Of a stretch of 64,000 nt of DNA, positions 13,175-56,605 are shown in pieces. The number at the start of each line of letters is the position of its first letter. The first letter of the stretch is position 1. The notes under the pieces are model-generated. The model worked only from the letters and a program-made list of their open reading frames with translations. It was not told the DNA's origin and searched no databases. Made by a program: the position numbers and the translations under genes. This DNA comes from Flavobacterium sp. LMO8 (lineage in GTDB: Bacteria; Bacteroidota; Bacteroidia; Flavobacteriales; Flavobacteriaceae): contig NZ_WIBJ01000031.1 of assembly GCF_009495755.1 (NCBI RefSeq), positions 1-64,000 on the forward strand. Reading direction: 5' to 3'.

Positions 13175-13234
13175 TGTCATTCTGAACTCGTTTCAGAATC
13201 TAAGATAAGAAGCTGAAACAAGTTCAGCTTGACA
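13175..13234. repeat. Bipartite palindromic repeat, copy far from the GIY-YIG gene
   Basis: Two imperfect palindromes, ATTCTGAA-ctcgt-TTCAGAAT (13179-13199) and AAGCTGAA-acaag-TTCAGCTT (13210-13230), bounded by TGTCA (13175) and TGACA. Read on the minus strand it has the same order as the copies around 53.4-54 kb: an AAGC/GCTT arm first, then an AT(C/T)C-type arm. The spacer is shorter, about 7 bases. It lies in the gap between the GH3-like gene and the next gene. Confidence 0.8.
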
Positions 13235-52179: not shown

Positions 52180-52209
52180 TTGGATTATTGCTAAAAAGAA
52201 CTATTTTTG
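52180..52209 (+). promoter_or_regulatory. Promoter TTG-N19-TATTTTTG for dprA
   Basis: TTG at 52180-52182 and TATTTTTG at 52202-52209, 19 bases apart. The longest frame begins inside it at 52207, so the ATG at 52246 is the likely start. Confidence 0.6.
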
Positions 52210-52245
52210 TTCTTCAATTATACGCCAAATAAATTTTTATACGCC

Positions 52246-53349
52246 ATGACACAGTCAGAATTATACCACACGCTTGCGTTGATGCAAGTGGAAGGAGTAG
52301 GAGATGTAATCGCTAAAAAACTCATCCAACATTGCGGAAACGCTACAGAAGTATTCGCTTCAAAAAAATCCCAACTTCAAAAAATTGACGGCATTGGTTC
52401 GGTTGTAGTTAAAAATTTACAAGACAAATCAGTATTTGCAAAAGCGGAAGCCGAACTACAATTTCTTGCACAAGAAAATATTTCCACTACTTATTTTCAA
52501 GACGATAATTATCCCGAGCGTTTAAAACATTGCTACGACAGTCCCGTACTTTTATTCCAAGCCGGAAATATCGATTTACAAAACAAAAGAATCATTAGTA
52601 TCGTCGGCACACGTCAAATTACGACGTATGGCATGGAATTTACTAAAAAATTAATTGAAGAAATTTCACCTCTAAATCCAATCATTGTTAGTGGTTTTGC
52701 TTATGGCGTGGACATTTACGCCCATCAAATGGCAATGGATTGTGGTTTGCAAACCATCGGTGTTTTAGCACATGGATTGAATCAAATTTATCCGAAAACC
52801 CACAAAAAGTACATGGCAAAAATGGAACAAAACGGCGGCTTTTTAACCGAATTTTGGAGCACCAGCAATCCTGACAAAGAAAATTTCATCAAACGAAATC
52901 GGATTGTGGCTGGTATTAGCGAAGCTACCATCGTAATTGAAAGTGCAGAAAGAGGCGGTTCGTTAGTCACGGCTAATTTAGCTAACGACTACAACCGAGA
53001 CGTTTTCGCAGTTCCAGGAAGAACAACGGATAAATACAGTCAAGGCTGCAATAATTTGTTAAAAACCCAACGTGCTAATTTGCTTACTTCGGCAGCTGAT
53101 TTGCTGTATATTTTAAATTGGGAATTGCAACGCGAATCTCAAAAAGCAGTTCAAAAGCAATTGTTCGTTACCTTAACTGAAGAAGAACAAATTATTTACG
53201 ATTACCTTCAAAAAACAGGAAAAGAAATGATGGATATCATCGCTTTAGAATGTGATTTTCCCATTTATCGCATTTCGTCTATTTTGTTAAATATGGAGTT
53301 GAAAGGAGTAGTTAGACCTTTGCCGGGAAAAATGTTTGAAGTAGTTTAA
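52246..53349 (+). CDS. dprA: DNA-processing protein DprA
   Basis: A 367-residue cytosolic protein that loads RecA on incoming single-stranded DNA during natural transformation. An N-terminal helix-hairpin-helix region (about 15-60) is followed by a Rossmann-like domain with ISIVGTRQITTYG (about 116-128), SGFAYGVDIYAHQMA and ERGGSLVTANLANDY. A C-terminal winged-helix domain lies at about 305-365. The start at 52246 (MTQSELYHTLALM) is fixed by the promoter. Bipartite palindromic repeats follow 9 bases after the stop. Confidence 0.94.
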   Translation: MTQSELYHTLALMQVEGVGDVIAKKLIQHCGNATEVFASKKSQLQKIDGIGSVVVKNLQDKSVFAKAEAELQFLAQENISTTYFQDDNYPERLKHCYDSPVLLFQAGNIDLQNKRIISIVGTRQITTYGMEFTKKLIEEISPLNPIIVSGFAYGVDIYAHQMAMDCGLQTIGVLAHGLNQIYPKTHKKYMAKMEQNGGFLTEFWSTSNPDKENFIKRNRIVAGISEATIVIESAERGGSLVTANLANDYNRDVFAVPGRTTDKYSQGCNNLLKTQRANLLTSAADLLYILNWELQRESQKAVQKQLFVTLTEEEQIIYDYLQKTGKEMMDIIALECDFPIYRISSILLNMELKGVVRPLPGKMFEVV

Positions 53350-53357
53350 AAGTCTAC

Positions 53358-53430
53358 CTGTCAAGCTGAACTCGTTTCAGCTTCTCTGAATTTAAAATAC
53401 ATAGATCCTGAAACGAGTTCAGGATGACAG
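53358..53430. repeat. Bipartite palindromic repeat, copy 1 upstream of the GIY-YIG gene
   Basis: Left arm AAGCTGAA-ctcgt-TTCAGCTT (53363-53383) and right arm ATCCTGAA-acgag-TTCAGGAT (53405-53425), separated by about 20 bases and bounded by TGTCA and TGACA. The right 27 bases (53404-53430) are identical to 53852-53878. Confidence 0.85.
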
Positions 53431-53461
53431 AAAGTTAAGTTTAAAAAATAATAATATACAG

Positions 53462-53537
53462 TTTGTCAAGCTGGACTTGTTTCAGCTTCTCAATAATTAA
53501 AAGTTAATAGATCTTGAAACAAGTTCGGGATGACAAA
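53462..53537. repeat. Bipartite palindromic repeat, copy 2 upstream of the GIY-YIG gene
   Basis: Same order as copy 1: left arm AAGCTGGA-cttgt-TTCAGCTT and right arm ATCTTGAA-acaag-TTCGGGAT. In the right arm the two changes keep the stem through T-G wobble pairs. The GIY-YIG ATG lies 17 bases beyond. Confidence 0.82.
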
Positions 53538-53554
53538 ACTAAAAATAAACAAAA

Positions 53555-53875
53555 ATGCCATATAGAACATATCATAATTATTGGGTTTATATTCTCACCA
53601 ACAAACCAAAAGGCACACTTTATATAGGTGTAACTGGAGGATTAGATGATAGAATGGAGCGACATATAAATGAAGAAGGAAGTAAATTTACTTCGAAATA
53701 TAATCTGAAAAATTTAGTTTATTTTGAAGAATTTCAGTTTATAAATGATGCAATAGCAAGAGAAAAACAGCTAAAAAATTGGCATCGACAATGGAAAATT
53801 AATTTGATTGAAGCGTCTAACCCTAATTGGGAGAATCTTTGGAAATCATTAGATCCTGAAACGAGTTCAGGATGA
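53555..53875 (+). CDS. Small GIY-YIG nuclease-like protein
   Basis: A 106-residue protein of the GIY-YIG family (small stand-alone type, UPF0213/YhbQ-like). The two family strands are visible as W10-V-Y-I13 and Y23-I-G25, followed by R33 and H37 (RMERHI) and the catalytic-type glutamate E70 (AIAREKQLKNWHRQWK). All key residues seem intact. The last seven codons and the stop (DPETSSG, 53852-53875) are made of a copy of the surrounding palindromic repeat, identical over 27 bases to the right arm at 53404-53430. It has no clear promoter. Association with the repeats suggests a mobile or repeat-maintaining role, by analogy with other repeat-linked nucleases; this is untested. Confidence 0.9.
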   Translation: MPYRTYHNYWVYILTNKPKGTLYIGVTGGLDDRMERHINEEGSKFTSKYNLKNLVYFEEFQFINDAIAREKQLKNWHRQWKINLIEASNPNWENLWKSLDPETSSG

Positions 53876-53878
53876 CAG
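53852..53878. repeat. Right-arm repeat that forms the GIY-YIG C-terminus and stop
   Basis: A 27-base right arm identical to 53404-53430. Read in frame it encodes D-P-E-T-S-S-G and TGA. It has no left arm directly upstream, so here the repeat is half a unit joined to the gene. Confidence 0.85.
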
Positions 53879-53910
53879 AAGTTAAATTTATAAAATAATA
53901 ACACATAGTT

Positions 53911-53982
53911 TGTCAAGCTGAACTCGTTTCAGCTTCTCATCTTGTAAATACTTTAGAATCGAAAACAAGTTCAGGATGACAA
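53911..53982. repeat. Bipartite palindromic repeat downstream of the GIY-YIG gene
   Basis: Left arm intact (AAGCTGAA-ctcgt-TTCAGCTT, 53914-53934). The right arm is damaged on one side (GAATCGAAAACAAG) but keeps TTCAGGATGACA. Left-to-right order is the same as upstream. Confidence 0.78.
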
Positions 53983-54031: not shown

Positions 54032-56605
54032 ATGTATACGCTTCCAAAAATTGAGCGATTTAATCAAAGTGTCGCATCCAAATACAACATTTATAACAGT
54101 GTTTTTATCACTTTACCTTTTGACGAAATTAACAATACCGGAGTTCTGTTACCATTGTTTGCAGAGGTTTGCGAAAGTGGTTTTAAAAACCATAATAGTC
54201 CAGAGGAGATTTTTGACACTTTTGTTTCTAAATATTTAGACAATCCAACGCAACAAGAAAAAGAATCGTTAATGTTTCGATTTATTCAATATATTGAACG
54301 TCAAGTGGTGCTTTTTGATGCCATAGAAGATGCCGCTTTTTCAGTTGTTAATAATTTGGAAGGCAGAGGTTCGTTACGTGACATGAAAGAAAATGCCGAA
54401 CAAAAAAACAAACAAGAAGAACTAAAAGAGTTTTTGGAAAATTTTAAAATAAGAACTGTTTTAACTGCACATCCAACACAATTTTACCCAGGTTCGGTTT
54501 TAGGAATTATAACTGATTTGACAGAAGCAATAAGAGAAAACAATTTAAATTCTATAAAAGAATTATTAGCACAATTAGGCAAAACGCCTTTTATAAAACA
54601 CGAAAAACCAACACCATATGACGAAGCAGTTAGTCTTATATGGTATTTGGAAAACGTATTTTATGAAACCGCTGGAGCGATGATGCAATACATTCAAAAA
54701 AACATTTTAAAGGGCGAAATGCCGAAAAATGATATTTTAAATTTAGGTTTTTGGCCTGGTGGCGATAGAGATGGAAATCCGTACGTAACCACTGAAATCA
54801 CTTTAAAAGTGGCAGATAGATTAAGAACGTCTATTTTAAAAAGTTACTACAATGATATTCGAAAATTAAAAAGAAAACTAACTTTTGCAGGAGTTGATAT
54901 CATAATTGCCGATATTGAAAGTAAGTTATATCGTTCTGTTTTTTATTCTCAAGGAGAAATTTTCATCACTTTAGAAGATTTAAAAGATAAATTATTGCAG
55001 GTTAAAATGTTGGTTACAACCAAACACCAATCACTTTATATAGATGAAATTGATTTGTTATTGAATAAACTAAATTTATTTGGATTCCATTTTGCAACAC
55101 TAGATATTCGCCAAAACAGTAAAATTCATGCTCGTGTTTTTGATGCAATTATAGCAAATAAAAAAACCAACTTCCCGGAGAATTATAAAACACTTTCTGA
55201 AGACGATAAATTTCATTTTTTATCAAATGTTTTTTCTGATTTAGACGTTACTGATTTTGAAGATGAAATCGTAAAATCAACAATTGGATCTATTAAAGCC
55301 ATGAAAACAATTCAGCAAAATAATGGTGAAAAAGCTTCCAACAGATATATAATAAGCAATAATGAAAGTGCTTTACATGTTTTTGAAACCTTAAGTATGT
55401 TTCATTTATGTGGATGGAAAAATCCTACGGTTGATATTGTACCGCTTTTTGAATCGGTAGAAGATTTGGAAAAAGCAGATCGTGTTATGGAGCAATTATA
55501 CACGAATGAAACTTACGCAAATCATTTAAAGATGCGTGGAAATGAGCAAACTATTATGCTTGGTTTTTCTGACGGGACAAAAGATGGTGGTTATTTAATG
55601 GCGAATTGGGGAATTTACAAAGCAAAAGAAGCGCTAACCGCTATTTCAAGAAAATACGATATTAAAGTGGTATTTTTTGATGGTCGTGGCGGACCACCAG
55701 CTCGTGGCGGAGGAAAAACCAATAAATTTTATGCTTCATTAGGACCAACAATCGAAAACCAGCAAATTCAATTAACCGTGCAAGGGCAAACCATTAGTTC
55801 TAATTTTGGCACAATAGATTCTTGTCGTTACAATTTAGAAAATTTATTAAGTGCAGGAGCAAAGAATCAGGTGTTTACTAAAAACGAAAACGAATTAACT
55901 TCTGAAGAAAAAGAAGTGTTGCAAAACCTTTCGGAAATTAGTTATCAAAAATATGTTGATTTTAAAAATCACGAAATGTTTGTGCCTTATTTGGAACGAA
56001 TGAGTACGTTGAATTATTACGCAAAAACCAATATTGGAAGTCGCCCATCTAAAAGAAATGCTTCTGACAAATTGAATTTTGCAGATTTAAGAGCGATACC
56101 TTTTGTGGGTTCGTGGAGTCAATTGAAACAAAATGTTCCTGGGTTTTTTGGAGTGGGAACCGCATTGAAAAATTACGAAGACAACAACGAATGGCAAAAA
56201 GTTTCCGATTTATACCACAACTCGTTATTCTTTAAAACGCTTATCGAAAACAGTATGATGGCATTGAGCAAATCGTTCTTTCCATTAACTGCTTACATGA
56301 AAAATGATAAAGAATTTGGCGAATTTTGGCAATTGATTTACACCGAATTTTTAGAAACCAAACGTTTGTTATTGAAGCTTTCGGGCTACTCAGCATTAAT
56401 GGAAAACTATCCAGACGGAAAAGCATCCGTTGAACTTCGTGAGAAAATTGTTTTGCCACTTTTAACTATTCAGCAATATGCGTTATTAAAAATTAAAGAA
56501 TTAAAAGAGAGCGAAACTCCAAATGAAAAGCAAATTGCTATTTATGAAAAAATAGTAACGCGTTCGTTGTTTGGAAATATTAATGCGAGTAGAAATTCGG
56601 CTTAG
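54032..56605 (+). CDS. ppc: Phosphoenolpyruvate carboxylase, divergent Bacteroidota type
   Basis: Carboxylates PEP to oxaloacetate to refill the TCA cycle. The 857-residue protein is the usual length. It keeps LTAHPTQ with H147, WPGGDRDGNPYVT near residue 247 and MLGFSDGTKDGGY near 510. The glycine-rich loop reads FFDGRGGPPARGGG (D550), where classical enzymes have FHGRGG with histidine. The C-terminus is RSLFGNINASRNSA rather than ...GMRNTG. It is therefore a divergent clade. Activity is likely, but the H-to-D change deserves attention. It has no clear -7 element nearby; the repeat cluster is directly upstream. Confidence 0.92.
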   Translation: MYTLPKIERFNQSVASKYNIYNSVFITLPFDEINNTGVLLPLFAEVCESGFKNHNSPEEIFDTFVSKYLDNPTQQEKESLMFRFIQYIERQVVLFDAIEDAAFSVVNNLEGRGSLRDMKENAEQKNKQEELKEFLENFKIRTVLTAHPTQFYPGSVLGIITDLTEAIRENNLNSIKELLAQLGKTPFIKHEKPTPYDEAVSLIWYLENVFYETAGAMMQYIQKNILKGEMPKNDILNLGFWPGGDRDGNPYVTTEITLKVADRLRTSILKSYYNDIRKLKRKLTFAGVDIIIADIESKLYRSVFYSQGEIFITLEDLKDKLLQVKMLVTTKHQSLYIDEIDLLLNKLNLFGFHFATLDIRQNSKIHARVFDAIIANKKTNFPENYKTLSEDDKFHFLSNVFSDLDVTDFEDEIVKSTIGSIKAMKTIQQNNGEKASNRYIISNNESALHVFETLSMFHLCGWKNPTVDIVPLFESVEDLEKADRVMEQLYTNETYANHLKMRGNEQTIMLGFSDGTKDGGYLMANWGIYKAKEALTAISRKYDIKVVFFDGRGGPPARGGGKTNKFYASLGPTIENQQIQLTVQGQTISSNFGTIDSCRYNLENLLSAGAKNQVFTKNENELTSEEKEVLQNLSEISYQKYVDFKNHEMFVPYLERMSTLNYYAKTNIGSRPSKRNASDKLNFADLRAIPFVGSWSQLKQNVPGFFGVGTALKNYEDNNEWQKVSDLYHNSLFFKTLIENSMMALSKSFFPLTAYMKNDKEFGEFWQLIYTEFLETKRLLLKLSGYSALMENYPDGKASVELREKIVLPLLTIQQYALLKIKELKESETPNEKQIAIYEKIVTRSLFGNINASRNSA

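Follow-up and report, generated by a model that had tools for sequence, protein, structure and literature searches.

A GIY-YIG gene among seven palindromes

The window analyzed here is a 64,000-nt stretch of the Flavobacterium sp. LMO8 genome (2.74 Mb in 33 contigs), taken from contig NZ_WIBJ01000031.1. A small GIY-YIG nuclease gene lies in it, bounded by dprA on the left and the phosphoenolpyruvate carboxylase gene (ppc) on the right, with seven 25-nt palindromes (REPs) around it, which together span 53360–53980. Elsewhere in the window is a further, gene-less pair of this class. The features, in window coordinates, are as follows.

13176..13233, no strand: gene-less dispersed REP pair of the same class, tags outward, 58 bp (core search)
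52207..53349, + strand: dprA, left neighbour (PF02481, 5.5e-76)
53360..53384, + strand: REP 1 of unit 1, GTC tag outward (unit 1 DNA fold z −8.1)
53404..53428, − strand: REP 2, partner of REP 1 (exact match to the searched core)
53465..53489, + strand: REP 3 of unit 2 (unit 2 fold z −4.9)
53510..53534, − strand: REP 4, partner of REP 3 (core search)
53555..53875, + strand: single-domain GIY-YIG nuclease gene, 106 aa (ORF and PF01541)
53852..53876, − strand: REP 5, a half unit lying across the 3' end of the GIY-YIG ORF (exact core match and fold)
53912..53936, + strand: REP 6 of unit 3 (core search)
53956..53980, − strand: REP 7, decayed, paired with REP 6 (core matched with 3 mismatches)
54032..56605, + strand: ppc, right neighbour (PF00311, 2.1e-143)

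Each palindrome carries a GTC tag at one end, followed by a stem opening AA or AT, a loop, the second stem arm and a C. The tag reads TGTC at 7 of 7 REPs of the locus and faces outward in every full pair, and the unpaired tail is CT. The original prediction, made from the sequence alone, had described an intact-looking 106-residue GIY-YIG gene with two full repeat units upstream and a half unit plus one full unit downstream; the coordinates bear out this arrangement, and ORF 53555–53875 contains the whole PF01541 domain. The unit ends that it named, TGTCA and TGACA, can be read in the sequence. Its bipartite units were also recovered, with the refinement that the left (AAGC..GCTT) and right (ATCC..GGAT) palindromes represent a single element in two variants of opposite orientation.

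REP 5 folds as DNA into an 8-bp stem with a 5-nt loop, and it overlaps the gene: its tag supplies the TGA stop of the ORF and it codes for the last residues, LDPETSSG. The half unit folds with a z of −4.9 against shuffles, and the folding of units 1 and 2 and of the half unit is not due to chance; unit 3 is decayed (z −2.2), and folded equally well in 7 of 200 shuffles. A search of the locus with Rfam at E ≤ 1 returned 15 matches, none reaching its gathering score and most of them microRNA look-alikes, as expected of hairpins. A 21-nt core, searched with up to three mismatches, gave 46 matches in the 2.7-Mb genome and none for the reversed control. Many of the 46 form inverted pairs; only three are perfect, and two of these adjoin the GIY-YIG gene.

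For characterization of the protein, domain, structure and substitution analyses were combined. The GIY-YIG domain is the sole Pfam match and is intact (PF01541, 56.7 bits against a cut-off of 22.6, E 3.1e-15); NCBIfam gave no match above cut-off, and PADLOC no match whatever. Residues Y12, Y23, G25, R33, H37, E70 and N89, which we take to be the catalytic-type residues of the domain, are invariant across eight diverse relatives (alignment A1), and the best matches of this alignment in named records are Flavobacteriaceae, partly Flavobacterium. An AlphaFold model (mean pLDDT 82.9, pTM 0.74) was matched best by Foldseek to UPF0213 BH0048 (E 3.8e-4), with Slx1 next. A second fold comparison placed Slx1 at Z 7.0 (94–96 residues aligned, 17–21% identity), UPF0213 at 6.9, I-TevI at 5.7 and UvrC at 5.5, although a Z below 8 proves little alone. 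The sequence search agrees with the fold: the best solved relative is 1zg2 (1.6e-7). The UPF0213 proteins 1zg2 and 1ywl are the best solved relatives by sequence, 1zg2 also by fold, and like the window protein they consist of one GIY-YIG domain of about 100 aa. PDB titles for Slx1 refer to branched-DNA processing, which makes the cutting of hairpins or cruciforms a natural guess. Substitution rates between coding sequences show that the gene is under purifying selection: dN is 0.028 and dS 0.43 between the window gene (host genome, G000) and the G023 copy, and dN lies far below dS in the gene pairs computed.

Linkage, class specificity and copy number

The core and the protein were both searched for in the genome and its relatives, as the original prediction had proposed. 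The protein search covered 101 genomes of the same genus and found matches in 80. Group A comprised all 97 rows listed down to E 4.6e-16, and group B comprised 20 weaker rows picked by hand. Flanks were scanned with a strict detector that calls for a GTCA tag, a 6-nt stem and a closing C. Close homologues without repeats would have spoken against the original prediction, and 71 of the 97 group A genes had a tagged palindrome no more than 300 nt away (56 upstream, 64 downstream and 49 on both sides). With the same detector, the flanks of ribD, used as a control, had none at 29 loci (one of 30 was dropped for length). Further controls gave 22 of 387 for 300-nt tiles across the ribD loci and 8 of 120 for 300-nt segments lying 0.7–1.3 kb from 30 of the genes. 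At the first 70 loci, palindromes stood on both sides in 38 cases and in none after each of three flank shuffles; these shuffled flanks gave one to three upstream matches per run. Of the 26 group A genes missed, most have variant palindromes by eye, with a shorter loop (GTCATTCCGTAGGAATC) or with the tag GTCTT or TTTA; three (L098, L174 and L180) have no clear variant. A separate protein clade (L046, L054 and L076) has the window-type palindrome core with the tag TTTA or TTCA, not GTCA.

An alignment score over whole flanks had been tried (≥14 in 57 of 70 close and 19 of 20 distant homologues) and gave way to the motif detector for two reasons: distant homologues have other repeats in common, and the two "flanks" of the truncated L117 overlap. 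Strict GTCA palindromes were found at 0 of 18 group B loci, two having been skipped as truncated. Ten of the 20 group B loci (L107–L126) are flanked on both sides by another repeat type, either CTGAGC-AGTCGAAG, GCTGAGG-CTCGAAGC or TCGAGCG-AGTCGAG. Judging by these sequences, the link between GIY-YIG genes and repeats may extend past CGTC-type REPs.

The palindromes differ in type from gene to gene. CTGAAC-GTTTCAG, CCCGC-GCGGG, GCGAGGNACGAAGC, TTTCGACG and TTCCGACG types were seen, with CTGAGGAACGAAG, ATTCCGTAGGAAT and ATGCTGTCAAGCAT as further types beside group A genes, and loop size varies among the classes other than the window's. Class labels were assigned by pattern match to the flanks and merged to seven states (88 of 97 genes labelled, nine unlabelled dropped), then mapped on a maximum-likelihood tree of 97 proteins and 98 columns in which 44 of 94 inner branches are open. 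Class changed 11 times on the tree of the 88 labelled genes, compared with 38–47 times in 1000 shuffles: each GIY-YIG clade has its own palindrome class. Paralogues within one genome differ in class, three paralogues having three classes in G013 and G066 likewise holding three with differing classes, so genome-wide composition cannot explain the match.

For the relation between gene and copy number, three classes were counted in the 101 genomes, with reversed controls near 0 and the gene's own flank copies removed. Where a gene flanked by the class was present, the median number of dispersed copies was 25.5 (8 genomes) versus 0 where it was absent (93 genomes; p 8e-6); for another class it was 20 (17 genomes) versus 1 (84; p 2e-5), and for the remaining one 8 (12 genomes) versus 0 (89; p 9e-6), these p values being optimistic because the genomes are related and not mutually independent. 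Repeats spread with no relation to the gene, the other outcome that would have counted against the original prediction, are therefore not what was observed: copy number tracks the class-matched gene, with exceptions. G081 has 52 class-T1 copies and no GIY-YIG match at E ≤ 0.001, and G039, G014 and G027 have 58, 41 and 35 T1 copies without a T1-flanked gene. Also rich in copies without the matching gene are G014 and G099 for T3, and G008 and G024 for T4. Conversely, the T3-flanked genes of G085 and G061 and the T4-flanked genes of G065 and G017 go with zero dispersed copies. Pairs are common among class-T4 matches also.

The host's second GIY-YIG gene, L077, goes with another palindrome, of which the genome has 13 copies, four of them adjoining L077; across seven genomes this class numbers 13, 11 and 6 copies with the gene and 3, 2, 0 and 0 without. 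One palindrome class was also counted in ten alphaproteobacterial genomes, giving 98–173 copies in five of six Bradyrhizobium and 14 in the other one; three of the remaining four genomes had 0, and Devosia had 86 matches, of which those listed nearly all carry three mismatches and represent a related palindrome. This count agrees with the idea that gene and repeat belong together and is non-discriminating, since not every GIY-YIG gene in these genomes is known.

Breadth was examined by scanning named bacterial and archaeal genomes with the eight-protein alignment, which found at least 560 relatives, the best 80 of which were kept. By NCBI label these 80 comprise Bacteroidota (45), Pseudomonadota (23), Ignavibacteriota, Fibrobacterota and Melainabacteria (2 each), and one each of Balneolota, Bacillota, Falkowbacteria, Berkelbacteria, Shapirobacteria and an unplaced Patescibacteria record. 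A relaxed detector found a tagged palindrome within 350 nt at 65 of the best 80 loci (upstream 57, downstream 51, both sides 43); control segments at least 1.7 kb from these loci had a palindrome in 24 of 292 cases. Among the best 80, the positive loci cover nine named phyla and the unplaced Patescibacteria record. The 15 loci where the relaxed detector found no palindrome within 350 nt include the only Bacillota locus. The tag is TGTC or CGTC at most of the 65 positive loci, and the tail is CC or CCC at several from Pseudomonadota. On the cross-phylum tree, coarse class changed 14 times versus 21–28 times when shuffled (51 of 80 loci labelled, 29 dropped).

Occupied sites, empty sites and element ends

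The unit between dprA and ppc is present or absent as a whole. In G067 the junction reads ..GGTTTAATTTTAAACTCG.. with no insert, gene and repeats both being absent; in the host (G000) and in G032 it reads ..GTTTAA, unit, TTTAATTTTAAACTCG.., and the whole unit lies between copies of TTTAA. Set against relatives with an empty site, the insertion begins directly 3' of the dprA stop codon, and about 10 nt outside the tags belong to the insert. The original prediction had proposed that occupied and empty sites be compared for target duplication. That comparison yielded one candidate, the 5-bp TTTAA at dprA–ppc, which stands in AT-rich DNA; no clean general target duplication was found when one was sought in dispersed pairs and at other empty sites. 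Elsewhere, G023 has the unit after dprA with different DNA downstream, and in G012, G013 and G080 the unit is absent at dprA and the downstream DNA is different. The gene copy of G032 is broken, in two pieces with one stop. Judging from these junctions, the unit may have been lost from G067, since it is also present in G032, which among the five genomes closest by dprA is the most divergent (91%). Among 183 protein pairs at least 78% identical and from different genomes, which are not mutually independent, 109 share neither outer flank, 57 share one and 17 were undecided; units have thus both stayed and moved.

Gene-less pairs were followed in the same way. Twenty class-T4 pairs, selected among the listed matches for being close and inverted, measure 98–102 bp each and have inverted ends. 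For one of them, a pair of 100 bp in G015, ten relatives were aligned: eight have nothing inserted at its site, and the other two, G057 and G008, carry there a pair from a different class. At the L284 site, split matches were also found in G042, G049, G077, G088, G091 and G096, among others. The spacer of about 50 nt in the class-T4 pairs (L279–L298) is itself an imperfect palindrome. A CACAATCTT-like stretch is repeated immediately beyond the tags of class-T4 pairs, from which the element may reach 10–16 nt past the tags.

Two repeats of the host lie in frame within coding genes, with a net gain of 15 and 18 nt relative to three close relatives. One is in ribD and occurs also in G032; the other is in an acetyltransferase gene and is confined to the host among ten aligned. 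Neither shows a simple duplication, and in this they are unlike simple insertions. In-frame REPs within genes were noted in ribD, a GNAT acetyltransferase and an aminotransferase-like ORF (L034, L035 and L027, each at 1501–1521), and such REPs resemble the Rickettsia palindromic elements.

A putative enzyme for CGTC-type REPs

The available text of Di Nocera et al. 2013 (PMC3733652) defines CGTC-tagged REPs by the tag CGTC, also TGTC or CCTC, with 8–9-bp stems, 4–5-nt loops and an unpaired tail that is usually CCA. As described there, they are mostly dimers in a single orientation, have some copies in genes, occur in five phyla including Bacteroidetes, and count among them Neisseria dRS3 and Rickettsia RPE-4 and RPE-6. 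The window repeats match this description in tag, stem, loop and dispersal, and differ in their CT tail. According to the same portions of PMC3733652, these REPs "apparently lack a dedicated transposase", and it was proposed that their enzyme has died out or that many transposases serve them. The word GIY-YIG is absent from the accessible text of PMC3733652 and of the 2025 RepRanger paper (PMC12306157). Among the papers listed by a search of the open-licence literature, none tied GIY-YIG to palindromic, interspersed, REP, RAYT or MITE repeats.

The closest parallel is with RAYT/REP systems (REPtrons), to which the original prediction had likened the gene and its repeats; the linkage and class-specificity data support that link. 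In both, a small nuclease gene is enclosed by palindromes that are dispersed through the genome and often paired, and copies of the enzyme are repeat-specific. They differ in that a RAYT is a Y1 (HUH) transposase with GTAG tags, whereas here the protein is of the GIY-YIG type with a GTC tag (TGTC or CGTC); Pfam finds no Y1 domain in the window protein. Among RAYTs the enzyme clade matches the palindrome class, a feature also seen here (11 changes versus 38–47 shuffled). The GIY-YIG protein is probably the nuclease that mobilizes or processes CGTC-type REPs as its cognate repeats, in the manner of RAYT and REP; its cutting and moving of them is what we infer from these patterns. We consider it likely that the locus belongs to a two-part selfish system, made up of a small hydrolytic GIY-YIG endonuclease and the GTC-tagged palindromes that it recognizes.

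In such a system, the unit that carries the gene would be autonomous, and the pairs that lack one (58 bp at 13176–13233; about 100 bp for class T4) would be non-autonomous, MITE-like derivatives of it. The enzyme would bind the palindrome cognate to it in extruded form, as a hairpin or cruciform that perhaps forms on a replication fork, and would cut both ends of a pair close to their GTC tags. Hydrolytic GIY-YIG chemistry leaves no covalent intermediate, for which reason the freed or copied pair would be joined into T-rich DNA through host repair or replication.

The gene occupies the place of a pair's spacer, which would also be seen if a free-standing GIY-YIG homing endonuclease inserted itself into REP pairs spread by something else. 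Weak matches to group I intron and phage homing endonucleases point the same way (TIGR01453, E 1.5e-4 and 21.9 bits against a cut-off of 56; phrog_314, E 0.0025). Group I intron homing endonucleases, and Penelope elements, which use a GIY-YIG enzyme, resemble the present case as GIY-YIG nucleases serving mobility, but at 106 aa the protein is too short to include a reverse transcriptase or a large DNA-binding domain. Homing is nevertheless unlikely, because the dprA–ppc site of G067 lacks repeats and gene jointly, not merely the gene, and because it leaves the association of class copy number with the gene unexplained. We judge it similarly improbable that the protein is a host-serving or addiction-like hairpin nuclease that trims, resolves or restrains palindromes spread by other means. 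A fold like that of Slx1, whose PDB titles describe a branched-DNA nuclease, and the excess of dS over dN in the computed pairs would suit such maintenance; however, close homologues are often found, together with their repeats, at unrelated positions, and each clade has its own palindrome, as expected of a selfish pair and not of a general housekeeping nuclease. Maintenance and the selfish pair are compatible readings.

Of 21 genomes selected on account of their repeats, 19 have some Y1 (PF01797) match, and Y1/RAYT or other transposases might move the repeats with the GIY-YIG gene as cargo. This is very doubtful: a strict GTCA palindrome lay within 400 nt at 0 of 12 Y1 loci fetched, G081 and G039 have 52 and 58 T1 copies and no Y1 match, and the available text of the 2013 survey reports no tyrosine transposase gene with CGTC repeats flanking it (PMC3733652). 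Nor would cargo be expected to match palindrome class with protein clade. Hairpins 3' of genes are common, and the palindromes could be plain terminators or hairpins that happen to adjoin a small gene; the ribD flanks (0 of 29), the distant segments (24 of 292) and the class specificity make this scarcely credible. The two-part selfish system, if true, would be a second, unrelated solution to the REP–RAYT arrangement, one in which a GIY-YIG nuclease provides the mobility.

Whether the same holds generally, with a lone GIY-YIG hydrolase of about 100 aa mobilizing CGTC-type REPs, each clade its own hairpin, as a widespread and so far unrecognized class of mobile element, seems to us evenly balanced. 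By analogy, GIY-YIG proteins may also account for Rickettsia RPE-4 and RPE-6 and Neisseria dRS3. A candidate enzyme can now be named for CGTC-type repeats in many genomes, and the code relating protein clade to palindrome brings the question within reach of experiments on a small protein and short stretches of DNA.

Other GIY-YIG genes were noted alongside. The host genome's top Pfam GIY-YIG match is L001 (G000:C29:109055), of another subfamily, with GTCAAGCTGAGCTTGTCGAAG-type repeats on both sides. A short GIY-YIG subfamily (L111, L114, L117, L120, L122, L123, L124 and L126) lies near tRNA-Val(tac) in 8 of 8 cases by ARAGORN. At four of these loci (L114, L120, L122 and L126) a tRNA-like arm is repeated across the gene from tRNA-Val(tac), an arrangement that looks, in its sequence, as if these genes moved via duplication of the tRNA end.
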